From Nitrososphaerota archaeon (GTDB lineage: Archaea > Thermoproteota > Nitrososphaeria > Nitrososphaerales > Nitrosopumilaceae): a stretch of DNA of 59,603 bases. Below the pieces are notes generated by a model. That model made no database searches. It was given only the letters and a program-made list of their open reading frames with translations, and had not been told where the DNA came from. Every line of letters begins with the position of its first letter. The stretch's first letter is position 1. Below are positions 10,618 to 46,947 of this stretch, in pieces. Made by a program: the position numbers and the translations under genes. Location of the stretch: assembly GCA_027315065.1 (NCBI GenBank), contig DAHUYT010000007.1, forward strand, positions 1-59,603, read 5' to 3'.

Positions 10618-10628
10618 ATCCAGTGTTT

Positions 10629-11674: not shown

Positions 11675-11780
11675 ATTGATGGTTTCCTGGCATGTACTCT
11701 TCAAAACAAGATAATTTTTTAAAATACCGGTAACAAAAAAATTATGGGTATATACCACATTATGTCCGAGGTGTAATCAC

Positions 11781-11917
11781 ATGAGCAAACAAAGATCGAG
11801 TTTGGGTGAGGCCTTTATCAGGAGAATATTGATCCCTCATTGGTTGGAGATAGCAACAGGCATCTTGTAGGACTAAGTCTGGTTCTTATTTTTGCAGCAA
11901 AAGTACCGGTAAGCTAG
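11781..11917 (+). pseudogene. Small membrane protein with a frame break
   Basis: GTATATACC (11748-11756) is a good TATA box 29 bases before ATG 11781. The first 29 codons (…IRRILIPHWLEIATGIL) stop at TAG 11868-11870, but the next frame continues as VGLSLVLIFAAKVPVS to TAG 11915-11917, completing a single transmembrane helix. A one-base shift at 11866-11869 would restore a 45-aa protein. Either a recent mutation or a sequence error. Confidence 0.5.
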
Positions 11918-12011
11918 AACTGAGTATTCGCATACTTGGAGCATATTACAAGAATACACACTAAGATACACAAGGAATCCATTAAATGTCAGAGTCTGTA
12001 ATTTGTTATAA

Positions 12012-13047: not shown

Positions 13048-13416
13048 TTATGTAATGTGTTTTTCTATTATCTGATTGATACATTCTACGATGCCTACGA
13101 TTTTATGGTGACTGGTAGTTCTTTCACATGATACTACAATTATCAGGTTTTTAACATAGTATAACAAAACATGAACTCTCTCTCGCATAAGATGAGCAAA
13201 ACTTTGTGTTCCTAATACTTCATCATAAAGATCAAAAAGTTCCTTTAGAATTAGCATATCAAATCCTAATGTCTGTTGCTGTGATTTTTGTTTCAAGAGA
13301 AATACATTTGTTGAGACATTGCTTGCAATCTCCCTGCCTTCTTTATCTACGATTGCTACAAATCGTATTGCATTATCCACCTCAACAATTTCATTTACCA
13401 ATTTTGGGAAATTCAA
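13048..13416 (-). CDS. DUF6659-like protein (roadblock/PAS-like sensor)
   Basis: 122 aa. FPKLVNEIVEVDNAIRFVAIVDKEGREIAS is the opening typical of a small family abundant in Nitrososphaeria; the fold looks like a roadblock/profilin-type alpha/beta sandwich (second hydrophobic strand VKNLIIVVSCERTTS). No catalytic motif. Family assignment is from memory of pattern, not from a search. Confidence 0.6.
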   Translation of the reverse strand: MNFPKLVNEIVEVDNAIRFVAIVDKEGREIASNVSTNVFLLKQKSQQQTLGFDMLILKELFDLYDEVLGTQSFAHLMRERVHVLLYYVKNLIIVVSCERTTSHHKIVGIVECINQIIEKHIT

Positions 13417-13544
13417 TTACATATCATACCATAAATTCAGTTATTAAGTTTGATTTCCAAATTTGGAAATAAGGTGATTGCGTAAGTTCTGGTAAGATGT
13501 GCGGTGGCTTGACTGAATTTTCTTCTTGGCATCAAGTTTTGGGT

Positions 13545-13703
13545 TTATTCAATATTAACAATCTTGCCCGTTTCTGTATCTATTCCTAGTTTTCTGGCTT
13601 GTTGCCCAAATTCAGTAAGTATGACTTTATCTTGCCAAATTCCATCCTCAAGAACTACATTTCCAACACATACCCAAATGCTGTCCAAAAAACTTTTGGC
13701 CAT
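13545..13703 (-). CDS. Small conserved-looking ORF (52 aa)
   Basis: Begins MAKSFLDSIWVCVGNVV and ends TEFGQQARKLGIDTETGKIV. The sequence is well composed and protein-like, and the frame extends upstream (GVGEYEVKV) without another start, so it may be the surviving 3' part of a longer gene. It lies 3' of a decayed fragment (13724-13831). Confidence 0.4.
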   Translation of the reverse strand: MAKSFLDSIWVCVGNVVLEDGIWQDKVILTEFGQQARKLGIDTETGKIVNIE

Positions 13704-13723
13704 CACCTTTACCTCATATTCTC

Positions 13724-13831
13724 CTACGCCTTGTTTACTATCTTATCATTTTTGTCAAAGATAATCTTGTTTGATTCTGTAAGATATTCTAGAATAGATT
13801 TTAGTGATTGATGTTGAATTTGTCTTGGCAT
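13724..13831 (-). pseudogene. Fragment of the winged-helix protein found intact at 30882
   Basis: The minus-strand frame MPRQIQHQSLKSILEYL…SNKIIFDKNDKIV matches the middle of the 30882-31235 product (LPRQIQYPSLKVILEYL…SNKVVFDKNNKIV) at most positions, then stops. The 5' part and the tail are missing. A second, dead copy of the same gene. Confidence 0.65.
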
Positions 13832-22531: not shown

Positions 22532-22752
22532 TATATCTAGAATTTCATAACTGTATATATTTCTTACAAACCAAAATTCTGAAAATTCTGGAATTTCACA
22601 AAATTACGATTTTTGGTAGCAATAGTTTAAGTTCACCTCTCAGAGTTCCGTGGTATGTCAAAAGCAAGCCTGGACCAGGCGTATCATGCAGGAAATGATC
22701 TAACAGTATGTTGTTAGTTTTAGGTTTTGTTTTTTAAAAAGTGTGTCACATA

Positions 22753-24801: not shown

Positions 24802-25735
24802 CATAGCTGAGATTCTAATAGGGGTAATTCAGGGCCTTGCCATCATTTTGCTGTCCCCGCTGATAACCGGAATAATGCAAAAGACCAAGGCAAGAACACA
24901 GAAAAGAATTGGAGCTACAATATTGCAGCCATACTATGACATCATAAAACTGATAAAAAAAGACGAGGTCGTATCCGACCAGAGCTCTTGGATCTTCAAA
25001 GTGTGCCCGTGGATAAACTTTGTCGCCCTTGCCACAGCAGCCTTCTTCATCCCGTTGTTTTTGACATATTCGCCGTTTGGGCTTGCAGGTGACCTACTTC
25101 TAGTGGTAGGTCTATTCGCACTTGCAAGATTCTTTACAATGCTGGCAGGCCTAGATGTTGCTAGCTCTTTTGGAGGCCTTGGAAGCAGCAGGGAGATGAT
25201 GTTCTCCGCTCTTTTGGAGCCTGCCCTCTTTCTGACAATATTCATTGTGGCACTCACCTACGGGGGAACTAACCTGAGCACGATTGTTGCTGCCGTAGCT
25301 GGTGCAACACTGCTTCCCCATCCGCAGCTAATCTTTGCAGCAATTGCAATGTTTATCATAGTACTAGGAGAAACTGGCCGTCTCCCGTTTGACAACCCTG
25401 CCACCCATCTTGAGCTTACGATGGTTCACGAGGCAATGGTTTTGGAATATTCCGGCAAAAGTCTGGCCCTGATAGAATGGTCGCAGGCAATCAAACTGAT
25501 GATACTTCTGGCATTGGTTGTAAACATTTTTGCCCCCTGGGGTATTTCGTCATCAATTACAGTTGCCACACTTGGTATTGGGTTCATCTCCCTTGTTGCA
25601 AAGATTTCGCTACTAGCTGTAATCATAGCTTACTTGGAATCAACGATTGCAAAATGGCGTCTTTTTAGAATACCTGATCTGATTACAATCGCCATTGCAA
25701 GCTCGATGATAGGAATGGTTCTCTACTATCTCTAG
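24794..25735 (+). CDS. NuoH/HycD-like membrane subunit
   Basis: 313 aa. GETGRLPFDNPATHLELTMVHEAM is the signature of the NuoH/HycD/HyfC subunit that links the hydrophilic arm to the membrane arm; QGLAIILLSPLITGIMQ and RTQKRIGATILQPYYD are also typical. Starts 8 bases before the previous stop. About eight membrane helices. Confidence 0.9.
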   Translation: MYSIAEILIGVIQGLAIILLSPLITGIMQKTKARTQKRIGATILQPYYDIIKLIKKDEVVSDQSSWIFKVCPWINFVALATAAFFIPLFLTYSPFGLAGDLLLVVGLFALARFFTMLAGLDVASSFGGLGSSREMMFSALLEPALFLTIFIVALTYGGTNLSTIVAAVAGATLLPHPQLIFAAIAMFIIVLGETGRLPFDNPATHLELTMVHEAMVLEYSGKSLALIEWSQAIKLMILLALVVNIFAPWGISSSITVATLGIGFISLVAKISLLAVIIAYLESTIAKWRLFRIPDLITIAIASSMIGMVLYYL

Positions 25736-26409
25736 TGATAAACATGGAATCAATACAATTAGATATTCTAACAATTTCCGGCTCTGTGCTGCTAATCGCT
25801 ACGTTTGGGGTTGTTGCAAGGCGTGGATTCATGGATTGGTTAAACGCATATCGTCACCAGTCCATAGTTCTTGCTGGAGTCACGGCAATAATTGGATATG
25901 TGACTGGCATATGGGAAATTTACATAGCAGCTGTGCTTACACTGCTGGTCAAGTCAATAGCAATTCCAAAGATTCTGACATATGTGACCAGAAGACTTGA
26001 TATTGAGTTTAAGACGGAAACTAACCCCTACATCAGTCTCCGTACGTCAATAATCATATCGGCGTTGCTTGTTGCATTGTCATATTTTCTCACACAGCAA
26101 ATTCCATTCAGGTCAGATCAGGTTGTAAACGTGTTACTGCCTGTCTCCATGGCACAGTTCTTCATAGGCCTTTTTGTTCTTGTAAATAGAAGAACGGTAC
26201 TAAGCCAAGTCGTAGGTCTTTTGATAATTGAGAACGGTCTATTCCTGTTTACAATGGTACTGACGCATGGAGTGTCTTTGATAATAGAGATCGGCATATT
26301 GGTGGATATTCTTGTTGGCATTGTGATTTCGTCAATATTGCTCTTCAGAATCGGCCGTACATTTGACAGCTTGGATGTTACCAATCTAGCAAATTTGAGG
26401 GATGACTGA
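25735..26409 (+). CDS. HyfE-like membrane subunit
   Basis: 224 aa (GTG start 25735; ATG 25744 is an alternative). Six or more membrane helices with IAIPKILTYVTRRLDI and the NuoK-like tail QVVGLLIIENGLFLFT…EIGILVDILVGIVI, matching HyfE of hydrogenase-4. Overlaps the previous stop by one base. Confidence 0.82.
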   Translation: MINMESIQLDILTISGSVLLIATFGVVARRGFMDWLNAYRHQSIVLAGVTAIIGYVTGIWEIYIAAVLTLLVKSIAIPKILTYVTRRLDIEFKTETNPYISLRTSIIISALLVALSYFLTQQIPFRSDQVVNVLLPVSMAQFFIGLFVLVNRRTVLSQVVGLLIIENGLFLFTMVLTHGVSLIIEIGILVDILVGIVISSILLFRIGRTFDSLDVTNLANLRDD

Positions 26410-27902
26410 TGGATTCTGTTTTTGCAAATATTACAATGTTGCTACTTTTTTTAACTCCTGTAGCAAGCGCTATATTGGTGACTCTAGTCCGCAAAAAAAG
26501 AACAATTGGGATAATAACGATATGCTCTGCGTCACTAATTCTAGTTCAGGTGTTTTTTCTAGTATCCAGAATAATTAGCGAGAAGACAGTCACTGCCTTT
26601 GGCAACATGTTTTATGTAGATTCTCTGAGTGCTGTAATTTTACTTTCTATTTCTGTCGTAGGCCTTGTCTCTGCACTGTATTCAAAAAATTACATGGGAA
26701 GACAGTATGACAATGCGATGATAGACGACAAGCACATTGTGAGATACTATCAGGGATTTAACGTCTTTTTGTTAACAATGCTTGTTGTTCCAACTGCAAA
26801 CAATCTTGGAATAATGTGGGTTACGGTAGAGGCAACTACGCTGGTATCGGTACTTTTGATAATGCTGTATTTTAAAGAAAACTCCATCGAGGCTGCGTGG
26901 AAATACCTGATAATAGCAACTGTTGGGCTTTCTTTTGCATTAATCGGTACCGTGTTTTTCTACTATGCCAACACCAATGTGACATCGTTTGATGATGCCA
27001 TGAACTGGACCAACATGGTTCACAACTCAAAACTTTTGGATCCCAACTTGGTCAAAATTGCCTTTGTTTTCATACTTGTTGGATATGGGACAAAGGCAGG
27101 CCTTGCTCCAATGCACACCTGGCTTCCAGACGCGCATAGTGAGGCACCGACACCTGTCAGCGCACTCTTGTCAGGAGTTTTATTGAATTGTGGACTTTAT
27201 GCCATAATTCGTTTTCATGTAATAAGCAGCAATACCATAGGATCGGCATTTTCAAGCCATCTTTTGATAATACTTGCAGTCATATCGGTGGGAATAGCTG
27301 CTGCATCAATTTACTTCCAAAAGGACATGAAAAGGATGCTTGCATATTCTAGCGTGGAACACATGGGCTTGATATCGCTTGGAATAGGATTTGGCGGCAT
27401 ACTTGGGGTATATGGAGCAATGCTTCAGATATTAAATCATGCAATTGCAAAACCGTTGATGTTTTTTGCAAGCGGGACAATCAGCCAGAAATATGAGACA
27501 AAGGCAATGTCAAAAATCAAAGGAATAATAAAAATAATGCCGGTAACAGGCGCATTATTCTTGATTGGAGGATTTGCCTTGGTAGGGATGCCTCCGTTTA
27601 ATGTCTTTCTTAGCGAGTTTTTCATATTAAGCGCAGGCTTTCAAAGCGGACAGTTTCTTGCAGTCACACTAGTAATCCTGTTTTTAGTTGTAACTTTTGC
27701 TGTCTTTTTGAGACACCTGATAAAGATGGTTTTTGGAAATCCTGTAGTTCCAATGAAAAAAGATGACATGGGGAAACTTGCAGTGGTGCCCATGATAACT
27801 CTTGGATCGCTTGTCATAGTCCTTGGAGTGTTTGTGCCGCAACAATTGCAGACACTTGTGCATAATGCAGCCATGATAATTAATCACGGAGGTTTTGCAT
27901 GA
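26409..27902 (+). CDS. HyfF-like antiporter-type membrane subunit
   Basis: 497 aa. A second MrpD/NuoN-like channel subunit: IMWVTVEATTLVSVLLIM, GYGTKAGLAPMHTWLPDAHSEAP and KRMLAYSSVEHMG hold the conserved Glu, Lys and His. The two antiporter-like subunits (this and the first gene) suggest two ion paths. Overlaps the preceding stop by one base. Confidence 0.87.
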   Translation: MDSVFANITMLLLFLTPVASAILVTLVRKKRTIGIITICSASLILVQVFFLVSRIISEKTVTAFGNMFYVDSLSAVILLSISVVGLVSALYSKNYMGRQYDNAMIDDKHIVRYYQGFNVFLLTMLVVPTANNLGIMWVTVEATTLVSVLLIMLYFKENSIEAAWKYLIIATVGLSFALIGTVFFYYANTNVTSFDDAMNWTNMVHNSKLLDPNLVKIAFVFILVGYGTKAGLAPMHTWLPDAHSEAPTPVSALLSGVLLNCGLYAIIRFHVISSNTIGSAFSSHLLIILAVISVGIAAASIYFQKDMKRMLAYSSVEHMGLISLGIGFGGILGVYGAMLQILNHAIAKPLMFFASGTISQKYETKAMSKIKGIIKIMPVTGALFLIGGFALVGMPPFNVFLSEFFILSAGFQSGQFLAVTLVILFLVVTFAVFLRHLIKMVFGNPVVPMKKDDMGKLAVVPMITLGSLVIVLGVFVPQQLQTLVHNAAMIINHGGFA

Positions 27903-29518
27903 ATACAATTTATTTAGATAAATACAAAAATGAAATGCTAGAAAAATTTGCAGACAAGATAGACAAGGTAGAGGAGAACGGCAATGAGATTCATTTCATT
28001 CTAAAAGACGTAAATGACGTCCCGTTGACTTGTAATCATGTTTATTCTATTCTAGGTACAAGGCTTGCAACAATAATTTGCACGGACGAACTTGGAATCA
28101 AGAATGGTTTTGTGTTGCGATATGTCTTTGGCAAGGAAAACAGGGAAGACATTTTTATTTTTATTACCGCAGTAGTGAGCCAAAGCCTGTTCTTTCCAAG
28201 CATCGCATTGCAGATTCCAGCGGCAGCTCTCTATGAACGCGAGATCAAAGAGATGTTTGGGTTAACACCTACTGGCAACCCGGACACGAGATCTCTTGTT
28301 TTGCACGAATTTCCAGAAGGCATCTTCCCATTAAGAAAGGAATTTTTGCTCAAGACAAAAGTTGCAAGACAGCAAAGACAGTATCAGTTCCTAAAGGTAG
28401 AAGGCGATGGCATATGCGAGATACCCGTAGGACCTGTGCACGCTGGCATAATAGAGCCTGGACACTTTAGATTCAGCGTACTTGGGGAGAACATAATCAA
28501 TCTTGAAACACGCCTTGGGTATGCGCACAAGGGCATAGAAAAACTTGCAGAATCCATGAAGCTTGATGATGCGCTATTACTGGCTGAGAGAATATCAGGG
28601 GATGAGTCTGTTGCAAACTCCACTGCATACTGCCAGGCAGTAGAAAAGATTTCTGGAATAAGGATTCCAAAAAGGGCAGAAAACATAAGAGTTGTTTTTG
28701 GAGAGATGGAGCGCATCTACAACCACATAAGCACGCTTGCTGGAATCTCGACCGATGCTGGCTTTGCTTTTGGCGCTGCAAGGCTATACATTCTAAAAGA
28801 GAGGCTGATGCAACTAAATGAATCTCTGAGTGGGAGTAGAATTCTTTTTGGAGTAAACAGAATCGGGGGAGTACGGTGCGACATATCTGCTCAAGACAGT
28901 AGACTTGTCATCAGTACGATAGGCACAGTTTTGCGTGATTTTGATAAAATCATATCTTTTCTCAAGGCAAAGTCATCATTTATGGACAGATTAAAAGATG
29001 CTGGCAGGATACCAAGAAAGGCAGCTCAGGACCTAGGAGTGGTAGGAGTGGTAGCAAGGGCGGCAGGAATAGATGTCGATACAAGACATGATCATCCCTA
29101 TGCAGGTTATTTACCGCGTAACCACAGGACACCACAACAGATCATAGAGGACCAGATTGAGATGGAAAAGCGTTCTGGCGACGCACTTGCCAGATTCGAG
29201 GTGAGAGTAAGAGAAGTCAGAAACTCTGCTGCAATGGTAGAAGAGATGCTCGACCTTGACTGCGATGGTACATTCACAGGCATGCCAGAGAAGATAACTC
29301 CGTACAGATCTGCACTGGGATATTCAGAGTCCCACAGGGGGCAGACTGTTCACTGGATAATGATAGGCAAAGACAACTCGATATTTAGGTACAAGATAAG
29401 AACTGCATCTTTTTGCAATTGGCCGATAATAGGGCACGCGGTACTCAAAGATATTGTGCCTGACTTTCCCCTAGTCAACAAAAGTTTGGACCTTTCTTAC
29501 TCGGGAAACGATCTATGA
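27899..29518 (+). CDS. NuoCD/HycE-like fused large subunit lacking nickel-binding cysteines
   Basis: 539 aa. Residues 1-150 are the NuoC part (ALYEREIKEMFGL…PLRKEFL) and the rest the NuoD/HycE part (EPGHFRFSVLGE, ETRLGYAHKGIE). In hydrogenases the first Ni motif is RICGICS; here residues 230-240 read ERISGDESVAN. The C-terminal DPCxxC is replaced by SLDLSYSGNDL (529-539). Thus all four Ni-Fe ligands are gone while the fold is kept. It is likely an energy-converting hydrogenase-related (Ehr-type) subunit. Confidence 0.88.
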   Translation: MNTIYLDKYKNEMLEKFADKIDKVEENGNEIHFILKDVNDVPLTCNHVYSILGTRLATIICTDELGIKNGFVLRYVFGKENREDIFIFITAVVSQSLFFPSIALQIPAAALYEREIKEMFGLTPTGNPDTRSLVLHEFPEGIFPLRKEFLLKTKVARQQRQYQFLKVEGDGICEIPVGPVHAGIIEPGHFRFSVLGENIINLETRLGYAHKGIEKLAESMKLDDALLLAERISGDESVANSTAYCQAVEKISGIRIPKRAENIRVVFGEMERIYNHISTLAGISTDAGFAFGAARLYILKERLMQLNESLSGSRILFGVNRIGGVRCDISAQDSRLVISTIGTVLRDFDKIISFLKAKSSFMDRLKDAGRIPRKAAQDLGVVGVVARAAGIDVDTRHDHPYAGYLPRNHRTPQQIIEDQIEMEKRSGDALARFEVRVREVRNSAAMVEEMLDLDCDGTFTGMPEKITPYRSALGYSESHRGQTVHWIMIGKDNSIFRYKIRTASFCNWPIIGHAVLKDIVPDFPLVNKSLDLSYSGNDL

Positions 29519-30312
29519 AAGACAAGACAAAAGGAATAATGGGCAACAGTATAGAAACAGTTAGAGATACTGACAGTTTGTTTATCCCCGACAATTACAG
29601 AGGTAGCATTGCATTTAACATGGAATCTGCTAATGGCAAGAGGGAACTGGCTGAGTCTGTCTGCCCTACAAAAGCGCTCTTGCCATTCAAAGAAAACTAC
29701 AGTGACTTGCTTTTAGATTACGGCAAGTGCATCATGTGTGGATACTGCGCTGAGATCACACCAAAATTAATCAAGATAAATAGCAAGCCGGCCAGCCCAG
29801 TCAATACAAGAGCCAGCATGATAGAACGGTTGGGCCCGCAGATTCCATCCTTGGCGTCTTATGAGCAGACAGGCAATGAACTTAGAGGAAAAATTCAAGA
29901 ATTGTTTGGCAGGTCACTTGCCATACGTGAAGTTGATGCAGGTTCCTGCAATGGCTGTGAGGTAGAGATTACAGCTCTTAATAATCCGATTTATGATATC
30001 GAGAGGTTTGGAATTCATTTTGTGTCGTCCCCAAGACACGCAGATCTCCTGCTTGTAACAGGGCCTGCATCGAAAAATATGGAAGTTGCCTTGAAGCGAA
30101 CGTATGACGCAATGCCAGGTCCCAAAATAGTCATAGCAGTAGGAGCATGTGCCTGCAGTGGTGGCATATTTGGGGATACCTACTCTACAACAGGTGGAAT
30201 AGGCAATGTGATACCCGTGGACGTGTATATACCTGGATGCCCACCAAGACCACAAACACTGCTTTGCGGCATACTGCTTGCCATAGGCAGAACTTTATCA
30301 CATACAAAATAG
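29515..30312 (+). CDS. NuoB/HycG-like small subunit fused to a ferredoxin domain
   Basis: 265 aa. C145/C148 (GSCNGCEVE), C212 or C214 (GACACSGG) and C242 (GCPPRP) bind the [4Fe-4S] cluster nearest the large subunit. The N-terminal 90 residues carry C50 (SVCPTKA) and C72/C75/C78 (KCIMCGYC), enough for one more cluster and reminiscent of a shortened NuoI/HycF. The fusion and ATGA overlap with the large subunit make it the last gene of the operon. All electron-carrying Cys are intact. Confidence 0.87.
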   Translation: MKDKTKGIMGNSIETVRDTDSLFIPDNYRGSIAFNMESANGKRELAESVCPTKALLPFKENYSDLLLDYGKCIMCGYCAEITPKLIKINSKPASPVNTRASMIERLGPQIPSLASYEQTGNELRGKIQELFGRSLAIREVDAGSCNGCEVEITALNNPIYDIERFGIHFVSSPRHADLLLVTGPASKNMEVALKRTYDAMPGPKIVIAVGACACSGGIFGDTYSTTGGIGNVIPVDVYIPGCPPRPQTLLCGILLAIGRTLSHTK

Positions 30313-30744: not shown

Positions 30745-30825
30745 TCATGTACCACGATTTTCTTTATTGGCGAGTATTCTATTTCCACCATACTATGCAT
30801 ATACACATTGGTTATTTATGGATTA

Positions 30826-30876
30826 TGTGTATATGTATTACATATATACGCATATATACTAGAATGTATATATACG
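30826..30876. promoter_or_regulatory. TATATA-rich promoter/operator region
   Basis: Three alternating purine-pyrimidine blocks (ACATATATACG, GCATATATACTAG, GTATATATACG) stand in 45 bases. GCATATATAC (near 30850-30859) is 25-30 bases before ATG 30882 and is the probable TATA box; the others are near-palindromic and could be regulator sites for the toxin-like gene pair here. Confidence 0.5.
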
Positions 30877-30881
30877 TAATT

Positions 30882-31235
30882 ATGAAGCATAGTGACATGT
30901 TCCAGAACAATCAACTAGATCCTACTTCCAATACAACCAAAGCAGATGATTCTATAATTATACATGGAAGTGACAGAGTGCCAAATCCAACGTTAGGTAC
31001 TATCAAAATGGTAGAAGAAACACTTTCTAAAATGTCAGAATATCCTACCAAGAATAAACTTTGGAGAGCACTGCCAAGACAAATTCAATATCCATCATTA
31101 AAAGTAATTCTAGAATACCTTGCAGAATCAAACAAGGTTGTTTTTGACAAAAATAATAAGATAGTGTGGTTATTTTCTGAAAATCAGAAACTTCGACAAC
31201 TTAAGGAATCCAGCAAGTCTGTTTTTGCTCAATAA
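30882..31235 (+). CDS. Winged-helix-like protein paired with RelE-like toxin
   Basis: 117 aa from ATG 30882; an earlier start at 30747 would translate an AT-rich promoter, so it is rejected. SKMSEYPTKNKLWRALPRQI…LEYLAESNKVVFDKNNKIVWLF fits a small winged helix. It meets the RelE-like gene (31229-31558) tail to tail with 7 bases of overlap. A dead copy lies at 13724. Confidence 0.6.
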   Translation: MKHSDMFQNNQLDPTSNTTKADDSIIIHGSDRVPNPTLGTIKMVEETLSKMSEYPTKNKLWRALPRQIQYPSLKVILEYLAESNKVVFDKNNKIVWLFSENQKLRQLKESSKSVFAQ

Positions 31236-31558
31236 CCAAATCGTTTTTCATATTCTACATGTGTTTTGAATCCTTCCAAAATATAGACAACAAGACCATT
31301 AGATTCTGGCACAATGGCATAAACCATTCTTCCACCATCACTTAAATCATATCTCCATGCATTGTTAACCCCGTACTTTTGAGTGTAGCAACCGATCAGA
31401 GGTTTTGCAATGTTGTCACCTTTAGTGCAGTCTTCTAATAAAAGCGGAAAAGACTCACTCACGTCTTTTTTTAATCTGCTATTCTCTGGCAGAGAATTGA
31501 AAAATTTATCAAATTCAGTTGTTTTCCTAACATCTATAGCAGATCTTGGTTTATGCAT
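31229..31558 (-). CDS. RelE/ParE-family toxin-like protein
   Basis: 109 aa. RYDLSDGGRMVYAIV followed by VVYILEGFKTHVEYEKRFGY has the RelE-fold order (strand-strand-final helix with E…H…Y), the same as in the decayed copy at 1-275. FDKFFNSLPENSRLKKDV is the N-terminal helix pair. No antitoxin is upstream; the convergent 30882 gene may serve. Confidence 0.7.
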   Translation of the reverse strand: MHKPRSAIDVRKTTEFDKFFNSLPENSRLKKDVSESFPLLLEDCTKGDNIAKPLIGCYTQKYGVNNAWRYDLSDGGRMVYAIVPESNGLVVYILEGFKTHVEYEKRFGY

Positions 31559-31787
31559 AGAAAATCCAACAACTACTTATAGATAAAGAAAATCCTTTCG
31601 TAAGAAGCTGTTTCAACTCTACATGTTAGGCATCTTTGTATTATTTTGATCCTCTACTGGCATTTTGTATTAAGGTAATCCATTTGTTATCGCCTTCTAC
31701 CTAGCATTGATAGCATGTCAGGTGTCCATGCAATAGTACACACTGCAAACTATGGAATTGAAATATGACGCTAACGCATGTTTTACT

Positions 31788-32084
31788 ATGAATATACAAA
31801 CATCCAGCAGGGCAAAATCGATTAGCATGCTGTGTGGTGTCTTTGGCATAGTATCCATGGCAGCTATAGCGCCGTATGTTGCTGCTTATGGAGTGAATTA
31901 CGCCTATGCACAATCCGCCAATCCCTGTGTAAATAATCCAAATCCATGTACCTATGGAATAAAATATACTGGCTCAGACAATCCCTACGGTCCAATGCAA
32001 GGCATAGCATGGGGAGTCGGGATTGGAATAGCAGGACTGTTGGCCGGTGTTGGAGTCTTTACAACAATAAAACGCACGCATTAA
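31788..32084 (+). CDS. Small secreted/membrane protein
   Basis: 98 aa from ATG 31788 (frame open from 31752). A signal-like segment (SMLCGVFGIVSMAAIAPYVAAYG) is followed by NPCVNNPNPCTYGIKYTG and a C-terminal Gly-rich membrane helix (GIAWGVGIGIAGLLAGVGVF). Two cysteines lie between the helices outside the membrane. Unknown function. Confidence 0.6.
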   Translation: MNIQTSSRAKSISMLCGVFGIVSMAAIAPYVAAYGVNYAYAQSANPCVNNPNPCTYGIKYTGSDNPYGPMQGIAWGVGIGIAGLLAGVGVFTTIKRTH

Positions 32085-32174
32085 TTTTTTTTCTTTTTTT
32101 TGGTTTTAACACGGGTCCAATGCTAAATGTATTTGGGTTTTCTCTTGCCTGAAATTTTAAAAAATGGTTCCGGT

Positions 32175-32378
32175 TCACATGTATTTCCATTCTCTCCTTG
32201 ATGGTGAAATAACACGAGTATATCCCTCATAATCTTTTACAAACTTTTTCTCCAGTTCAATAAAATATGAAGATGGGATAATTCTACCATTGTTAAATGC
32301 TACAGGCAACTTTATGTGTAGAAGAACTTTTTGAACAAAGCTCAAGTTTAATCTAATTTCTGGTATGGAACCTTGGCA
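32175..32378 (-). pseudogene. Decayed homologue of the 58721-59056 protein
   Basis: An open frame without start codon reads KVLLHIKLPVAFNNGRIIP…YFIELEKKFVKDYEGYTRVI and aligns with KVKLHFKLPTRYNDGRGMA…YVRVKDYFIDNYGGMSTSL in the intact gene at 58721. The remaining C-terminal half is missing. Confidence 0.6.
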
Positions 32379-32488
32379 TCATGAACCTTATTCACACAAA
32401 TATCATTTTGGTCAATTATATATTTTTTATAAAAAAAACATGGTTTCCGCTTTACAGACTTGTTCTTTTACATCTTGGAAACCTCAAT

Positions 32489-32550
32489 TGCCATTTTTTA
32501 CAAGTAGCTTTGCAATTTCCATCACTTGCCTACTGTGTTCCTTTCTTGCG
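32489..32550 (-). pseudogene. APS kinase (cysC) fragment
   Basis: Read on the minus strand, RKEHSRQVMEIAKLLVKNG matches RKEHNRRVIEVAKLLVKNG of the intact enzyme at 53360. Only about 20 codons survive before a stop. Confidence 0.65.
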
Positions 32551-32792
32551 GACTACAAATACCTCAATGCTTACAACTAAGGTAACGATTATGATTTTGG
32601 CGGGTATTTTTCAAGGCAAGTAAAGGTCAACATGACACATGCGGTAATGGTAAACCCTGTCTTACAGGACACAACCTTTAGGCAGATCTATGTGAGTTTG
32701 ATAAAATTAAAAAATTTAGATTCAAAATGCAAGCCTAAAGCAAGAAATATCCATAAATATCTTGAACACGATTTTATAAGAAAGGGTCGTAG

Positions 32793-32906
32793 ATGAAAGA
32801 AAGATGTAATTTCTGTAAAAAGACATTAGGCTCGTGTACATGTGAAGAAAACATATTGGGAGATTATCATAACAAGTCAAAAGATAGAGATGATCCATTT
32901 GGTTGA
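32793..32906 (+). CDS. Zinc-site microprotein (37 aa)
   Basis: MKERCNFCKKTLGSCTCEE gives CxxC…CxC, enough for one zinc, followed by an acidic tail. CATAAATATC (32751-32760) lies about 35 bases before the ATG. Complete at 37 residues. Confidence 0.55.
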   Translation: MKERCNFCKKTLGSCTCEENILGDYHNKSKDRDDPFG

Positions 32907-32928
32907 TTCAAAAATAATGAATGAATTT

Positions 32929-32978
32929 ACTAATCTGGAATAATTCACATCAACTAATAGAAATTAATGGTAATTAGT
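32929..32978 (+). repeat. 50-bp dispersed repeat, copy A
   Basis: 48 of 50 bases are identical to 40105-40154 in the same orientation. The right half has ACTAAT…ATTAGT inverted arms. Both copies lie just downstream of the stop of a minus-strand gene (here TFB at 33014), so it may act at 3' ends or be a tiny mobile unit. Confidence 0.7.
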
Positions 32979-33013
32979 CAATTAATTCATGGAAAATGTA
33001 ATAAGATTTTTCC

Positions 33014-33958
33014 TTATCCCTTAAGATCAAGTTCTCTTTTCAAATTCACTATCCGGTTTCTAATTGTTACAGTTGTTACGCCAGCTGCATGTGCTATCTT
33101 GGCTTGTTTTATTTTTTCATGATTCATGATACAAGACAGATAAAGTACAGAAGCTGCCAATCCCATTGGATTTTTTCCAGCAGAGATCTCCTTTTGCTTG
33201 ACCATTGATAGTATCTCCAAAGCATCTCTTCTAGTCTTTTCGCTTATGCCTGCCTCATTTGCTATCCTCGTAACAAATTCAGACGAATCAAACGAAGGTT
33301 GTCGTAGTTCTAGATTTCTAACCAAGACCATATAGGCTCTAACAAGATGCCCTCTTTTTACGTTACCACTTACTGCAATGTCTTTTAATGTCCTTGGAGT
33401 ATCTGATACCCTGCAGGCTGCATAAAGGGAGGCGCATATGATGCCCGGTATTCCCCTGCTCTTTGTCAACTTCATCTCCAATGCTTTTCTGAAAATGTAT
33501 GCAGCCTCCTCAATTACAATATCAGGTATTGCAAGTTTTGTTTTCATGGAATATAATATGTTGAATGCCGCGACCAAGCTACGATCCCTTGAGGTAGATT
33601 TGCTGCGGCTATCCCACTTTCTGAGACGATCAAAGATATGCTTAACATCAGATGAGAGAGGATTTCCCGAGGCATCAGTGTTGGAAAAATCAATGTTGGT
33701 AGACAGTCCCATATCATGAATTGCAAGTGAGTATTCTGGTCCAGCCCTGCTCTTGGCATAAAGTTCTTTCATGTCAAATGCACGCGACTGGGAACTAGAG
33801 TACTCGTCTTTTTCAATCAATACAAGACCGCAAGCACCGCATACCACCTCGCCTGATAGTGAATCAGTTAACAAAGGTCCCTTGGTGCACTGGGGCTTCT
33901 TACAATTTTCAAAGATTTCTTCTGACGTATGTTGTATGATGGAATAGTAAGGCCACAA
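33014..33958 (-). CDS. tfb: Transcription initiation factor B (TFB)
   Basis: 314 aa. The N-terminal zinc ribbon is CKKPQC…VCGAC; the B-reader/linker and two cyclin-fold repeats follow, beginning RDRSLVAAFNILYSM and KGNPMG-like KNPMGLAASVLYLSC, with the recognition helix GVTTVTIRNRIVNLK. It recruits RNA polymerase to TATA-bound TBP. The annotated start is TTG; no ATG is in frame nearby, and a TATA-like ATTAAAA is only about 10 bases upstream, so the exact start is uncertain. Confidence 0.93.
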   Translation of the reverse strand: MWPYYSIIQHTSEEIFENCKKPQCTKGPLLTDSLSGEVVCGACGLVLIEKDEYSSSQSRAFDMKELYAKSRAGPEYSLAIHDMGLSTNIDFSNTDASGNPLSSDVKHIFDRLRKWDSRSKSTSRDRSLVAAFNILYSMKTKLAIPDIVIEEAAYIFRKALEMKLTKSRGIPGIICASLYAACRVSDTPRTLKDIAVSGNVKRGHLVRAYMVLVRNLELRQPSFDSSEFVTRIANEAGISEKTRRDALEILSMVKQKEISAGKNPMGLAASVLYLSCIMNHEKIKQAKIAHAAGVTTVTIRNRIVNLKRELDLKG

Positions 33959-34176
33959 GTTTTAATTATGGATTATGCACCGATTCAGAGTATTATATCG
34001 ACGTAGGTCAAGCTAACAGGTAATTCTAATTTTGTAGAACCAAGATTTGGCATACAATTCAGACCTTCCTTTGAACTGTATTCATAGTTTGGATTTCGTG
34101 TCTATTAACACTTGGTCTATTTAGAAGAATCCTGCATAGTCATCGATATAAGGTTGGATGCAAAAGTTATGTATGA

Positions 34177-34860
34177 TTGATACAAGAATCTTCAAAGAGA
34201 CTGGTCAGACGTTTCTTTGGTAACAATGCAGAATCATATGAAAAAGTAGTGAGCCTGACAACTTTTGGAAGAGACGCATATTGGAAAGATGAGATCATAA
34301 AAAGAATCAAAGAATGCAATTCAGTACTTGATCTTGCTTGTGGCACGGGAATATTGACATTTAAGATAGCTGAGAAATTTCCCGAGTCAAAGATAACTGG
34401 CGTTGACATTACCAAAAGATATCTTGAGATTGCAAAGCGCAAGCTAAATCCTCATCATAAGATCTCCTTTCTGCTTGATGACGCAGAAAATCTAAGTCTT
34501 GATACAAAATTTGACTGTATAACCTCATCTTACATTCCAAAATATTGCAACCCGTACATTCTAATAGAACGATGTCTCTACCACCTAAATCCACACGGTA
34601 GAATAATTTTGCATGATTTTACTTATCCTAAAAGCAAACCCATCAGATTGTTATGGAATCTTTATTTTGCCATCTTACAAATGGTTGGGGTTTTTGTGCC
34701 AGGCTGGAAGGATGTATTCAAAGATCTCCCAAAACTAATTAGGTCAGAAAACTGGGTTGATAAATGCAAAGGCATCATGGAAAGAAACGGAATGATTGTA
34801 GAGGCCAGATACCTCACCATGGATTGTTCAGCCATCCTTACAGGCACGAAGAAAGTCTAA
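34177..34860 (+). CDS. Class I SAM-dependent methyltransferase (UbiE-like)
   Basis: 227 aa from TTG 34177, placed 27 bases after TATA box GATATAAGG (34145-34153). VLDLACGTGILTFKIAEKFP and GVDITKRYLEIAKRKL are SAM-binding motifs; SSYIPKYCN and PHGRIILHDFTYPKS follow as in UbiE/MenG-type enzymes. Its 3' end overlaps the chorismate-lyase-like gene by 33 bases, tail to tail. With its two neighbours it may belong to quinone synthesis. Confidence 0.75.
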   Translation: MIQESSKRLVRRFFGNNAESYEKVVSLTTFGRDAYWKDEIIKRIKECNSVLDLACGTGILTFKIAEKFPESKITGVDITKRYLEIAKRKLNPHHKISFLLDDAENLSLDTKFDCITSSYIPKYCNPYILIERCLYHLNPHGRIILHDFTYPKSKPIRLLWNLYFAILQMVGVFVPGWKDVFKDLPKLIRSENWVDKCKGIMERNGMIVEARYLTMDCSAILTGTKKV

Positions 34861-35265
34861 TCTTATCTCTTCTGATACATGGAACCAGACTAAATCATTG
34901 CACAAGATCTCGTATTCCCTTGTAACTGTACTTGCAACTGGGTCCAAGGTGACTGATGTGGTCCTTCTTTGCGCAACTATCTCGTTACTTCGTAATATCC
35001 TGCCCATGCTTTCTCTTTTTTGTAAAATGGCAGTCATTACAGATGTTGGTATATTTTTTGAGTCAAATTTTACATTGGCACGAAGAATTGGAAATTTGTC
35101 ATGACCTATCACAATCTTTCTTAGGTATTTTGTGCCTGATATCGAATTTTGCTCAACGACTTTGAGATAAACTGGCTTTTTGATTATTTCAGATATTGTT
35201 TGTTCGACATACCCTACTGGAGCATCCAGAACTCTCTTTCCTATCTGCTCTATCTCAGCTTCCAT
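34828..35265 (-). CDS. Chorismate lyase-like (DUF98/UTRA fold) protein
   Basis: 145 aa. PVYLKVVEQNSIS…YLRKIVIGHDKFPILRANVKF and MGRILRSNEIVAQRRTTSV resemble chorismate pyruvate-lyases, where a Gly-x-x-L-x-x… then RR-containing strand shapes the pocket. If so it would release pyruvate from chorismate to give 4-hydroxybenzoate. It starts 24 bases after the stop of the membrane protein at 35290. Remote call. Confidence 0.5.
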   Translation of the reverse strand: MEAEIEQIGKRVLDAPVGYVEQTISEIIKKPVYLKVVEQNSISGTKYLRKIVIGHDKFPILRANVKFDSKNIPTSVMTAILQKRESMGRILRSNEIVAQRRTTSVTLDPVASTVTREYEILCNDLVWFHVSEEIRLDFLRACKDG

Positions 35266-35289
35266 GATAATATATCTAGTTCATTTCAG

Positions 35290-35976
35290 TTAAGCGTATC
35301 TTAAAACAAAATATGATATTGTAGAGGCAATAACTCCAATACTGACCAATTTCAAAATAATTTCTTCTCTATGTGCATCTTGAACATCTCTAAGCTCACG
35401 CATTTGCCTCTTGTATTTTTTTGATGTTTTTATAAGAATAAAGCTTAGTAGGGCAGCTATGCCTGATAATGCAAACGCCTGTAGTGATATAGTATTTGTC
35501 TCAATAGCAGAACCTGCAAAGACGGGAAGCATTCCCCATGATATCACAAAGATTACATCGTTGTGAAGCTTACCCTTGAATAATTCCAGATTATACGCAA
35601 AAAGAAAGAACATTTCTGCAATTCCTATTGGAAATAAGAGCGGTGAATCAAGAAATGCGTAGTATAGGCCAATAGCAAATGCGACAGATAACGATGAGAG
35701 GGAAACCATCAAGATCTTCTTTTTTGATAAAACGCCCCAAGGTTTGTTTTTGCTACCTAGGGCGTCAAGACAGTGCGCTGTTATTCCAAGAGCAAGAAAA
35801 TACAGAACGCATATCGCAACAAGCCTTTCTGCCGAAAAGTTAGTTGCAAATGAACCCCACGCTGCAAAGGAAACAACCATCCCAGTATATGGCAGAAAGA
35901 GGATACCGCAGCAAAGCCTGAAGTTTCTTGGCCCGAACTGTGGAACAAACCATTCAGAAAACCTATCCTTTTGCAA
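35290..35976 (-). CDS. Polytopic membrane protein, possibly UbiA-like
   Basis: 228 aa, about seven membrane helices (first FRLCCGILFLPYTGMVVSFAAWG). Polar motifs sit at helix ends: TAHCLDALGSKNKPWG and AYNLELFKGKLHNDVIF, in the positions of the two Asp-rich loops of UbiA prenyltransferases but incomplete. Adjacent to the chorismate-lyase-like gene. UbiA membership is weak. Confidence 0.5.
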   Translation of the reverse strand: MQKDRFSEWFVPQFGPRNFRLCCGILFLPYTGMVVSFAAWGSFATNFSAERLVAICVLYFLALGITAHCLDALGSKNKPWGVLSKKKILMVSLSSLSVAFAIGLYYAFLDSPLLFPIGIAEMFFLFAYNLELFKGKLHNDVIFVISWGMLPVFAGSAIETNTISLQAFALSGIAALLSFILIKTSKKYKRQMRELRDVQDAHREEIILKLVSIGVIASTISYFVLRYA

Positions 35977-36125
35977 TGTAACTTTATGAATTGAACAATA
36001 GCCTAATAATCAGATCCTTTACAGCGTTGTATAAGATATGATAGTTATCACCTTGTAAAAAATATACACGTTAGTGATAGATAGGTCGTAGTTATATTGA
36101 TCCTCTGCATATAATATGTACAGAA

Positions 36126-36278
36126 ATGGCAATAGACCCTGTTTGCGGCATGGAAGTGGACAAGAGAGAAACAAGTTTGAAATCAATCACAGGCGGAAGG
36201 GAAATTTACTTTTGTTGTTCAAATTGCAAGTCGCAGTTTGATGAAAACCCGTCTCAGTTTCTGTTCGATTATAGTTAG
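36126..36278 (+). CDS. YHS-domain microprotein (50 aa)
   Basis: DPVCGMEVDK opens and IYFCCSNCKSQFDENPSQF ends a complete YHS domain, the small metal-binding module usually found in copper-exporting ATPases. Stand-alone YHS proteins may carry copper, fitting a copper-dependent organism. TTATATTG (36093-36100) is its probable TATA box. Confidence 0.8.
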   Translation: MAIDPVCGMEVDKRETSLKSITGGREIYFCCSNCKSQFDENPSQFLFDYS

Positions 36279-36317
36279 TAAAAATCCTCTCTTTTTACAA
36301 GTTCATCATTGAAAAAT

Positions 36318-36949
36318 CTATATTCTTCCTATTTGCTTCGCATGATTCCAGTCTTTCGAATATTTGTCTGCAAGCTTAATCGATTCAGGCAACCATTCAC
36401 CGTCTTTTATCAGTGAGTATACCAATTTTGTCGCTGTCTTTAAGCTAATTTTATTTCCAACACTTACAAAGATCTTTTTGCCTTTTTTCTTCTCAATTAT
36501 CTTTGCAAGTATTTTGCCATCAAACTCCACCGAGTTTTTCCTCATCTTACCGCAAAGTAGGCTCTTTGCTACTCCAATTGTAGGCTTGTCAATGACAATT
36601 CCAATGTAGCAAGCAAGTCCACACTTTCTTGGATGTAATTGACCATTTCCATCAACCAGCAGAACATCAAATTTGTTATCAAGTAGCTTCAAGGCAGACA
36701 TTATGGGACCTGACTCTCGCAACATCATCAAACCAGGAACATAAGGAGCCTCTATTTTGGTCATCGATGTAACATGTTCCAGCACGTCTAATGTTTTTGA
36801 GTCCATTATGACGGCTGAGGAATTTGCCATCTTATCCTTATAGGATACGTCAACGGTACAAACTGTTCTAATATTTTTGAGACAGTCTTTTGTGATTACT
36901 TGAAGAGAAGTTTTTCTTGAAGTTTTACAGCATCGGTGTAACGCGACAT
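36318..36949 (-). pseudogene. nfi: Endonuclease V with a frame break near the N-terminus
   Basis: The open part (170 aa from ATG 36830) has VDGNGQLHPRKCGLACY and VGNKISL, clear EndoV blocks. EndoV also needs the first Asp in VDVSY, which is encoded just upstream (TVCTVDVSYKDK, same frame, no start). The true N-terminus, MSRYTDAVKLQEKLLF, starts at ATG 36949 in another frame; the shift is at about 36895-36905. The full length would be about 210 aa, normal for the family. Either a sequence error or a recent loss of inosine-repair enzyme. Confidence 0.75.
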
Positions 36950-36952
36950 CTG

Positions 36953-37207
36953 TTACTTTTCTTGGTCAATCGACCCGCCTTGCCCTTGAATGGCAGCAAA
37001 TGTTGAGGTACTTGTAACTGGCGTTACATTTCGAATGCTGGTTATTGTTGCATAAAGGTCGATGTACTTTTTAGCTGAAACCTTGATGAAGATATCGTAT
37101 CTTCCCACGATTCCATTTACTTCAACAACATTTGGCAAATTCTTGATTTTAGATATGGTCTCCCTTTCTTGGCCCGGAATACAAGTTGCAAAAATGTATG
37201 CGATCAT
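36953..37207 (-). CDS. Lrp/AsnC ligand-binding (RAM) single-domain protein
   Basis: 84 aa from ATG 37207: AYIFATCIPGQERETISKIKNLPNVVEVNGIVGRYDIFIKV is a RAM domain, followed by TPVTSTSTFAAIQ. The open frame runs to 37273 but the extra residues are not conserved in this family. It ends 3 bases before the endonuclease V start at 36949, so both are likely co-transcribed. Confidence 0.85.
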   Translation of the reverse strand: MIAYIFATCIPGQERETISKIKNLPNVVEVNGIVGRYDIFIKVSAKKYIDLYATITSIRNVTPVTSTSTFAAIQGQGGSIDQEK

Positions 37208-37273
37208 AAGTAATATAGAAGAAAATGCAATAAAAACAGTTTCATGATCATAACATCTGACCTTATATGACAA

Positions 37274-38083
37274 TGAAATGATAATTCAGTATGATCATGA
37301 AATGTGAAGGCAAGCAATCTGAAACCCTCAAAGGGATTTTTAAGGAAACTGAGAATAATTAATCAGAGACAGATCAGGATTGAATGCGTTGTGACAGCCT
37401 TACTGGACAGTACCGAGCTTTGAGCCAGTCTGAAGCAGAATTCTCATGACAAGAAGAGAAATTTTCATCGCTTGATTATACTACCGAATCAGGCTGTAGC
37501 ATGACACCTTACCGCCTGTAAACGGCCAGAACGAGTCTATAGTGCCAGATATCTATTGATACCGCAGTAGATCCCTATCCCCCCACTCAACCATGCCTAG
37601 ATTAACTGTACAATTCAGACTTGGGTGATCCTAATCATTGCTAGAGATAGGCCTTGTAGACCATCAATAAATCAACTCAAATTTAGATGCGGTGACCCTG
37701 AAGATTATTCAGAGTCACCACAGAATGTTTTCCAATTCGTGAACCGGGGATCTTTTTTCTGTTGAATACAATATGTCACCGTCCTAGTTAAAACTTCATT
37801 TGGGATTGTGGTCGTGCACAGAATTTGAGATCATAGAATAAATTTTCACCGTTAAACTAAGATACAAGTTACACGATTCCAAGATGTGATGGATGTAGTT
37901 ACCAATATTTCGTAAAGAAACAGGTTGGTTTTGCCAAGGATCATGTGATCCATTCAAATACACTCATGAAGAATGTATCAAAAATTATTTTCTAAAGAGA
38001 GATTACAAAATAAGGCCGTAACGGATTAAATGTCAAATTGTATCTATCCTTTCTGATATAAAAAATTCGCTTCCATGTTTAAA
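37274..38083. other. Long gene-free region with a strong hairpin
   Basis: No ORF above 25-40 codons looked real. The clearest element is a 12-bp stem with one mismatch and five-base loop at 37691-37719 (GGTGACCCTGAA-gatta-TTCAGAGTCACC), followed 45 bases on by a T-run (ctTTTTTTct). This could be a non-coding RNA or a terminator. Confidence 0.45.
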
Positions 38084-38917
38084 TCACTGAATTTTTAGCG
38101 GTATAGAACCTGTGCCCCATGGTTCTTTTACAAAGAAAGAATAATTCTTTGTAGTGTCAATTACATCGTAAAAAGTCCAATCCACAAATTTTGGCGTATT
38201 TGGTATCAATGTAAGACTACCATAGACTAGTGTGTTAGTTGCATATGGAATCTCTTTTTCTCCATCACTTAGGGCATAATTACAAGAATCCTGGCTTGGG
38301 CATGACATTGTTATTTCTTGACCAATATTGTCGTTGACTACAAAATGAATAGTCAGTATAGATTTGCCATCATCGGCTGGCAGTAGCTCACTGCCTACAT
38401 AATAAAATGTGATAGGGCCTATAACATATGGAGTAGATGACGCAATTGAGCTTTTGATTTTGGTGTCATATTCAATTTGTTGCAAACATGTTTCTTTGTC
38501 TGCTGGTGTCGTAAAATTATCACACTGCGACTCTGGATTATTTGTCGTAGAATTTTGTCCAGGGCTTATGTAGATTATACCTGAATTGATTAGATACTGG
38601 ATTCCTGTCACAAACTCACTATCAGAGATTGTTCCATTTGCCCACCACCCAGCATTATTTTTTACCCAAATTGGTATCGTGTTTTCTTTTGTAATTGTTG
38701 AGTTTACAGGTGGTACCATCATTATATTGTTTTGTATAAGATATTGAATACCTTTTATAAAATCAGAATCAGCGATTTTTCCTTCAGACCACCATTTCGC
38801 GTTATTTTTAATCCAGGAAGGAATATGTATTTGTTGACCGCTGACAGTATCTAATGCTCCAACTAGCATAACCACGCAAATTACAACAGCAAAAAAATGT
38901 TTGATAGTGTTTTTCAA
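38084..38917 (-). CDS. Secreted protein with two 'IPxWIKNNAxWW' repeats
   Basis: 277 aa. Signal peptide (FFAVVICVVMLVGALDTVSG), then two 45-residue repeats: IPSWIKNNAKWWSEGKIADS followed by GIQYLI, and IPIWVKNNAGWWANGTISDS followed by GIQYLI. This unit occurs in extracellular proteins of ammonia-oxidising archaea, often next to plastocyanin-like domains. A beta-rich C-terminal domain with two cysteine pairs (CDNFTTPADKETC; CPSQDSC) follows. Confidence 0.78.
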   Translation of the reverse strand: MKNTIKHFFAVVICVVMLVGALDTVSGQQIHIPSWIKNNAKWWSEGKIADSDFIKGIQYLIQNNIMMVPPVNSTITKENTIPIWVKNNAGWWANGTISDSEFVTGIQYLINSGIIYISPGQNSTTNNPESQCDNFTTPADKETCLQQIEYDTKIKSSIASSTPYVIGPITFYYVGSELLPADDGKSILTIHFVVNDNIGQEITMSCPSQDSCNYALSDGEKEIPYATNTLVYGSLTLIPNTPKFVDWTFYDVIDTTKNYSFFVKEPWGTGSIPLKIQ

Positions 38918-39060
38918 TATTATTAGTATGTTTTATCTTAAAAATTAAGTTGTCTAGTCTATATTAACTAGTTTTTTGTCAGGTTCCGGCATCAGTCAAG
39001 TCATGATATCTTTGGTTTGAATCCTGCAAAACTTTTTGCTAGTTCTGATTCATGTATTGA

Positions 39061-39951
39061 TCAACATGAAACATATGGAGAATTTCCCACAACCTGGTTT
39101 CCCAAGATTGTTCCTCTACACATCACAATTGTACCAGGATTAGAGATTGAGCCGAGGTTTGAGATAGTTGCAGAGTTGTAAATGACATTGTGGTTAGTCA
39201 TCACACCGCTACGATTATTTGCAATCACACCTGAATTGGTGATGGCTCCTGCATTTGTAAAGTTGAAACTGTTTTGTATCATTCCCCAGTTGTAGATGTC
39301 AGCTGCATTTAGGATGAATCCATCCGAGATGAGTTTTGCATGATTTGATATTATACCATGATTTGATATTGTGCCTAAATTGGAGATAGTACCATTAGAA
39401 ATGGATGTAATAGTTCCGGCTTGGTTGTTGATTATAACACCTGTATGGTTTTGGGTGATATTTCCATCGTTTGAGAATGTACCAGAGTTGAAGATTGTAC
39501 CTCCATTGAGGAAGGGAACAGAGTTGAAGATTGTACCTCCATTTGATATTGTTCCATAGTTATCAAACGTTTTCCCATTGTTAGATATAATGCCTGCATT
39601 AGTGATATCTCCCTTATTGTAGATGTCTCCGCCAGAGTTGAAGAGAACGCCACCGTTGGTAATGGTACCATCATTGACAAGTGTTATGCCAGGCAAAACA
39701 ATCACTGTCTCTCCACGAAAAACAACCATTGATGTTACGATACATGTATTAGCATCGGAGGTGTTCCATGCACCTCCTATTCTCTGACAAGAATACTGTC
39801 CATATATCACACCACTGATAGCAAACGAGGGCTGGACTCCTGTAAATACTATAACGATTGAAAATATTAAAACCGGTAAACATGCATAACGCATGATATG
39901 ATATTTGTGTCCTAGAACATTAAGTGTTGTTTGTGAATTTTTTGAAAGCAT
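39061..39951 (-). CDS. Secreted repeat protein (beta-solenoid-like adhesin)
   Basis: 296 aa. After a signal peptide (ACLPVLIFSIVIVFTGVQPSFA) come about 20 short repeats of 7-14 residues based on (G)xIxNxGxI(F/S)NxG, for example GTISNGGTIFNSVPFLNGG. Such Asn/Gly ladders form stacked beta-solenoids. Two cysteines lie at each end (SCQRIGG…NTCIV; CRGTIL…YVSC). Probably exported and surface-bound. Confidence 0.75.
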   Translation of the reverse strand: MLSKNSQTTLNVLGHKYHIMRYACLPVLIFSIVIVFTGVQPSFAISGVIYGQYSCQRIGGAWNTSDANTCIVTSMVVFRGETVIVLPGITLVNDGTITNGGVLFNSGGDIYNKGDITNAGIISNNGKTFDNYGTISNGGTIFNSVPFLNGGTIFNSGTFSNDGNITQNHTGVIINNQAGTITSISNGTISNLGTISNHGIISNHAKLISDGFILNAADIYNWGMIQNSFNFTNAGAITNSGVIANNRSGVMTNHNVIYNSATISNLGSISNPGTIVMCRGTILGNQVVGNSPYVSC

Positions 39952-40104
39952 GATTAATTTAGCTGACCATAGAGTAGAGCCTACTGTGCATCAATTCCTG
40001 TAACATGTTGACCTGATGTGCACCGTTTCACAAACCAAATGCTATAAAAATACCGGTCTACACAGAATCAGGACTTTCGAGTTTGAGTACTGTAACACTA
40101 GGCT

Positions 40105-40154
40105 ACTGATCTGGAATAATTCACATCAACTAATAGAAATTAGTGGTAATTAGT
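40105..40154 (+). repeat. 50-bp dispersed repeat, copy B
   Basis: 48/50 identity to 32929-32978, same orientation. It ends 24 bases downstream of the stop of the minus-strand gene at 40179. The mismatches are at the fourth base and within AATTA(A/G)TGG. Confidence 0.7.
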
Positions 40155-40178
40155 GAAACGTAATTTTCGAACTGACAG

Positions 40179-40430
40179 CTAGTCCGATAATATAGAATAA
40201 TCTGCAAAAATTATTCCCAGCCTTTGTAATATCACTAGAATAATTCCTACTATTCCTACAACCAGAAGCACGGCAAATACATTATGCTGTTCTAGACTAA
40301 TTTGGAACGTTCTATAACCAAATGGTCTAACAACAAGAATTAGCATGCACGCAAGTATACCAAGAAGAATAATCACATACCTGAGGTTGTGTGAATTGTT
40401 GGTTGAATGCTCTTGAGAGTTTTCTGACAT
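40179..40430 (-). CDS. Small two-helix membrane protein (83 aa)
   Basis: Two membrane helices, YVIILLGILACMLILVV and VFAVLLVVGIVGIILVIL, joined by a short basic/polar loop. N-terminus hydrophilic (Asn/Ser/His). No family recognised. Confidence 0.6.
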   Translation of the reverse strand: MSENSQEHSTNNSHNLRYVIILLGILACMLILVVRPFGYRTFQISLEQHNVFAVLLVVGIVGIILVILQRLGIIFADYSILSD

Positions 40431-40924
40431 ACATTCTTGATAGGTAGACAGATTAAAAAATCTTGCACTAGTAAACTAGTGTGAGAGTTCCTGTCTTGTT
40501 TTGATGTATTAGTCTTTCAGACTTCAAAAAGGTAAACATTTACAAAATTCAGAATAATGATTGATGTGTTTCGTAACAGGCTGTGTCGTTATGATGGAAT
40601 AAGTGACATTATCTGTGGGTTGACAAACTTGAGGATGGAGTAACGTAACATGATTGTGGTGCCGTAGAAAAAATCAGATCAGTTCGGTGAAAATGTGTGT
40701 ATTTTGTTTGTAATTACACAAGAGGTCCTTCCATCCGAGATTAAATCCTGTCGAGGAATTCTTCTGTTGTGATTCCCGCTTGGTCCAACATGGATCTCAA
40801 AGTGGAAGGTTTTATTGGATCATGTCTTGGAACAGGAAACGGTGTTTCCAAAAGAATTTTTTAGAATCATATGACTACACGATGTCTTGACAGTTTTAAT
40901 AAGGGAGAAGATGAAAAACATATC
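40431..40924. other. Intergenic region holding a decayed hicA
   Basis: Apart from the hicA fragment at 40741-40857 no gene was found. The last 35 bases hold the TATA box TTTTAATAAGG (40891-40901) of the 40925 microprotein. Confidence 0.45.
40741..40857 (-). pseudogene. 3' fragment of a hicA toxin gene
   Basis: The minus-strand frame PVPRHDPIKPSTLRSMLDQAGITTEEF matches the C-terminus of HicA toxins (P-x-H…K-x-G/S-T-L-R-x-I/M-L…AG…EEF). An in-frame TAA precedes it, so the N-terminal half with the catalytic His is lost. Confidence 0.65.
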
Positions 40925-46398: not shown

Positions 46399-46947
46399 TT
46401 ATGCCTTCACTTTGATAGTCATGGTAGAAGACATGGGTTTTAACTTTGTAGATAGGCCCAACGCCTTTTGAATAAAATCTGCAAATACAAACCCCATTGC
46501 CTTGGACCACTTGAGTCCAAAATCGTGTTCGAAAACAAGATTGAGATAACCTTCCTTGTCTGTAAAGGAGCTAAATCTATGATAACAGCCTGCCCACAAC
46601 GACATTGTCTCAAACAAATACTTGCTCAAGTTTTCCATTGTAACTGGGACATTATTATGTTCAAAAACAATAAGAAACGTGTTGGTACCAGCACTCTCCA
46701 GTATTTCTACCATCTTCTTTTCATCCACTGCGTTAACTATCTCTTTCCATACCTTGGCCGGAACAATGAATCCGCGCTGTTCTTCTACATGTCTGTAAAA
46801 TTGAAGATGTTTTGATAATATCAGGTTGGTCTTTGCGTTAATGCTATGACCGCTTTTTTTCGCTTCATTTTTCAATTGGTCAAGAAGAGATTTGTCCATC
46901 GCAACAGTTAGGTTTGCCCTGTGACTATCTTTGAATTCTCCTCTCAT
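46399..46947 (-). CDS. Ribbon-helix-helix protein with C-terminal 'HDFG' domain
   Basis: 182 aa. HRANLTVAMDKSLLDQLKNEA…INAKTNLILSKHL is an RHH-like N-terminus; LVFEHDFGLKWSKAMGFVFADF is the counterpart of the HDLG blocks at 8285 and 8820. The third member of this family in the window, but unlinked. Confidence 0.65.
   Translation of the reverse strand: MRGEFKDSHRANLTVAMDKSLLDQLKNEAKKSGHSINAKTNLILSKHLQFYRHVEEQRGFIVPAKVWKEIVNAVDEKKMVEILESAGTNTFLIVFEHNNVPVTMENLSKYLFETMSLWAGCYHRFSSFTDKEGYLNLVFEHDFGLKWSKAMGFVFADFIQKALGLSTKLKPMSSTMTIKVKA

Follow-up and report, generated by a model that had tools for sequence, protein, structure and literature searches.

A rare 54-nt intergenic repeat in a Nitrosopumilaceae archaeon and its possible spread as a small copied unit

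We found that a 54-nt sequence occurring twice, in direct orientation and 7,176 nt apart, in a 59,603-nt stretch of archaeal DNA (contig DAHUYT010000007.1, the window) recurs once elsewhere in the same genome and, as a partial match, once in a related species. It has the look of a small repeat, rare and copied, that does not belong to a larger duplication. Our best explanation, held with roughly even confidence, is that this is a dispersed, A+T-rich intergenic repeat of ~50 bp, found in only a few species within a single Nitrosopumilaceae genus, and that a small non-autonomous element gave rise to the copies in a transposition-like or hairpin-templated process. Were it mobile, it would represent a rare example in this archaeal family of a tiny dispersed repeat at low copy number, with no enzyme evident; a regulatory role would indicate a small regulon that includes surface proteins and Cys-rich ones. 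At present it stands as a well-verified low-copy repeat of uncertain role.

Copies, ends and surroundings

As the preliminary description stated, positions 32929-32978 and 40105-40154 share 48 of 50 bases and have the same orientation. The match extends further, to a unit with 51/54 bases identical between the two copies, here called c1 and c2 (Table 1). The longest exact repeat within the window is 34 nt, compared with 14-16 nt in five shuffles, and BLAST of the c1/c2 repeat inside the source genome gave an E value of 4e-18. Both copies lie outside genes, in agreement with the earlier remark that they make no coding sense.

The source genome (G000; 1.74 Mb, 86 contigs, 97.7% complete) contains three copies, the third being c3 (G000:C13:20130-20177, 83% identical). 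A pattern allowing up to three mismatches returned the same three, and its reversed control returned none. In a search of 36 further genomes from the genus, the sole carrier was Nitrosopumilaceae archaeon JOPF002 (G018), where 25-27 nt match at 96% on contig JASHNR010000018.1 (g18; G018:C12:13795-13819). The repeat is thus present in 2/37 genomes of the genus and 2/300 genomes of the order. We built a sequence-only model (R1) from the four copies; it gave these 41-47 bits, whereas no other match in the genus exceeded 17 bits, and across the 300 genomes of the order its matches included no further copy and no parent insertion sequence. When 84,980 species genomes were searched for exact matches to the core, the only hits were JOPF002 and one Ligilactobacillus match, about as expected by chance on our own estimate. 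The core and two longer patterns had no match in IMG/VR, and a viral origin was rejected on this basis. A literature search with the terms we used found no paper on such short repeats in Thaumarchaeota.

Matching between copies begins and ends sharply. When we performed BLAST on the 2.1-kb surroundings of every pair of copies, nothing significant was found outside the unit, which rules out a longer diverged duplication around them. The preliminary description would have been contradicted had the two copies in the window been the only ones and flanked such a duplication; neither is the case. Its suggestion of recent copying or selection was a fair one: for c1 and c2, recent copying is favoured by the abrupt ends, the unrelated flanks and the near absence of the repeat in relatives.

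Direct duplications flanking the copies are absent from c3 and only 4 nt long in c1 and c2. In g18, CGATGT occurs on either side, possibly by chance; none of the four copies shows a convincing target-site duplication. We also looked in relatives for a true empty site at the loci orthologous to c1, c2 and c3. None could be demonstrated, since the genes around these loci are arranged differently in relatives. In JOPF002, two inverted copies of a 258-nt segment, 4.3 kb apart and 93% identical (G018:C12:8965-9222 and 13542-13799), each carry a small Cys-rich (metallothionein-like) gene; g18 is at the edge of one segment, and there is no repeat at the other. Similarity between the segments ends at g18, which suggests association with a breakpoint rather than proving an empty site.

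These observations (a discrete unit, sharp ends, scattered sites) are consistent with a small non-autonomous element that would have been copied whole into intergenic DNA. The process may have been transposition-like or hairpin-templated, comparable in behaviour to REPs or MITEs, with c1 and c2 probably recent copies and c3 and g18 probably older ones. Against a dispersed element stand the low number of copies in the genome (three), the lack of a convincing target-site duplication, of a Y1 transposase and of a demonstrated empty site, and inverted arms that differ between copies and are weak in c2 and c3.

Table 1. Coordinates of the repeat copies and adjoining features in the window
Feature	Position	Strand	Remarks
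c1, copy 1 of the 54-nt repeat	32928..32981	+	in 107-nt gap between convergent genes
c2, copy 2 of the 54-nt repeat	40104..40157	+	in 227-nt gap between two minus-strand genes
Core of c1, TTCACATCAACTAATAGAAATTA	32944..32966	+	
Core of c2	40120..40142	+	
Long imperfect inverted arms around c1	32915..33000	-	6+4+7 bp in fold
Small Cys-rich 37-aa reading frame	32793..32906	+	TATA-like box upstream; 3' end toward c1; no Pfam match
Transcription factor B (TFIIB) gene, TFB	33014..33958	-	3' end toward c1
Asn-rich repeat surface-type protein	39061..39951	-	
Small membrane-protein gene	40179..40430	-	end adjoins c2

Genomic contexts and a possible regulator-binding site

All four copies lie outside recognisable genes, and their position relative to genes varies. 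The repeat had been described as lying past the 3' end of a gene on the minus strand. This is true of c1, ~35 nt past the stop of the TFB gene (its gap is also a convergent 3'-3' one), and of c2, ~24 nt past the stop of the small membrane-protein gene; it does not extend to c3 and g18, which are upstream of small genes. Specifically, c3 is situated between a 103-aa gene and a gene for a small conserved membrane protein, ~30 nt upstream of the latter's conserved start region, and g18 precedes the start of a small Cys-rich gene by ~50 nt, a TATA-like box lying between the two. In addition to its 3' position, c2 is ~150 nt upstream of the start of the gene for the Asn-rich surface-type protein.

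Three of the four copies (c2, c3 and g18) are therefore upstream of a gene, as archaeal promoter operator sites are, and it is possible, though we consider it unlikely, that the core is a binding site for a putative lineage-specific regulator, controlling from upstream of promoters the genes that adjoin these copies. Within the core, CTAATAGAAATTA is invariant in 4/4 known copies and AATTCAyAT is nearly so; the core also has a weak dyad, AATTCAyAT-N6-ATAGAAATT. The core of g18 is better kept than its flanks, and promoter-operator modules common to two loci do exist in this genome (for example, 40447-40506 and G000:C33:13200-13259). The weakness of the dyad argues against such a site, as does c1, which is flanked by convergent gene ends and has no recognisable gene starting next to it. 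Moreover, c1 and c2 are alike over 54 nt, well past the usual operator, and the genes adjoining the copies have no evident common function. In eight relatives of the c3 gene the DNA upstream is unrelated and lacks the repeat, which also speaks for the dispersed element. The membrane-protein gene next to c2 has a relative in JOPF002 (84% identical in DNA), beside which there is no copy.

Inverted arms, folding and the structured RNA alternative

The inverted arms ACTAAT/ATTAGT reported previously are present in c1, while c2 has ACTGAT. Shuffling the two 50-mers yields inverted arms of 6 nt in 35% and 28% of cases, and such arms are thus no evidence in themselves. In c1 and g18 the core is enclosed by longer, ungapped inverted arms, and for each of these copies 0/500 shuffles gave arms as long; those of c2 and c3 are weak (p 0.36 and 0.26, 500 shuffles). 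Arm sequences differ between copies, and the long arms of c1 extend past the shared 54 nt and are specific to that locus. These locus-specific arms speak for the dispersed element in a suggestive, not decisive, way.

A rival reading, which we regard as improbable, is that the minus strand encodes a small RNA with structure, or an element of a 3'-UTR, predicted to form a hairpin of two helices whose loop is conserved. Minus-strand folds of c1 and c2 have z-scores of -2.5 and -2.1. A 15-pair minus-strand structure has 91.7% of its cells paired, compared with 32-42% when slid, though it was drawn from the same four sequences on which the pairing was scored. Its U-G pairs work on the minus strand only, and two outer pairs are doubly changed, a number that 157/500 shuffles reach with just four sequences. 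We take this predicted hairpin as suggestive, not as proof. Further evidence against an RNA comes from c3, which retains 3/6 outer pairs and folds better on the plus strand, and no common promoter or terminator was seen among the copies. No Rfam family was found in the window, and a known RNA family there was rejected on this basis; a C/D-box RNA was rejected by eye as the boxes are not conserved among copies.

We consider it a long shot that the repeat represents a new kind of hairpin element, with a fixed loop and locus-specific stems, in which a putative enzyme would recognise the loop and place it within inverted repeats. Least plausible of all, and rejected, is that c1 and c2 are attL/attR attachment sites bounding a 7.2-kb integrated element: their direct orientation, length of ~50 nt and spacing would suit it, but a Pfam scan of ten proteins (30747 to 38917) found no integrase between or beside them and no mobile-element gene between them (the proteins there are TFB, methyltransferase, UbiA-like, endonuclease V and AsnC-type), there is no tRNA, and c3 is solitary on another contig.

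Comparison with known repeats and other elements of the window

The dispersed repeat favoured here resembles REPs and REPINs in being short, intergenic and dispersed, with inverted arms in some copies. REPs are commonly tied to a Y1 transposase (RAYT); the 97.7% complete source genome has no match to the Y1/IS200-REP transposase domain (PF01797), and a REP with RAYT was rejected. As to the conserved palindromic stem of REPs and REPINs, significant arms are found only in c1 and g18, with different sequences. One source describes REPs as usually exceeding 100 copies per genome (PMC2817692), as against only three here. With MITEs it shares small non-coding copies, sharp ends and unrelated flanks, but it differs in lacking terminal inverted repeats common to the copies and convincing target-site duplications. 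Because it departs from REPs in copy number and Y1 transposase and from MITEs in termini and target duplications, we filed it in neither group; it may act like one or the other.

Several other elements were observed in the window. The module at 40447-40506 is a second, 60-nt repeat that constitutes the promoter region of the small membrane-protein gene adjoining c2; it is 95% identical to its counterpart on G000:C33 and 80% identical to G018:C9:19063-19117. A perfect palindrome, CACTAGTTTACTAGTG, is located just upstream of the TATA-like TTTTTTAA, and the module is likely a common operator-promoter. Directly beside it is a lone 28-nt stretch, GTCTGAAAGACTAATACATCAAAACAAG (approximately 40495-40522, minus strand), one base off the repeat of a genuine CRISPR array with at least 28 units in another genome of the genus (G030:C76 ~10090-12100). 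There is no array in the window, and this lone CRISPR-like repeat, upstream of the small membrane-protein gene, is reminiscent of repeat-derived regulatory elements.

From its translation, 40738-40887 (minus strand) is a candidate HicA-toxin-like gene. Its DNA is 91-93% identical to that of two other genomes (G003 and G007), whose other DNA is far more diverged, and it was probably transferred recently. Related small proteins encoded at 8285-9386, 46399-46947 and G000:C33 ~13390-13720 are, by appearance, candidate ribbon-helix-helix regulators. Finally, 22741-30312 is an operon of complex-I / group 4 NiFe-hydrogenase-like subunits, including a 30 kDa-49 kDa fusion and a 20 kDa subunit, in a genome of Nitrosopumilaceae kinship.
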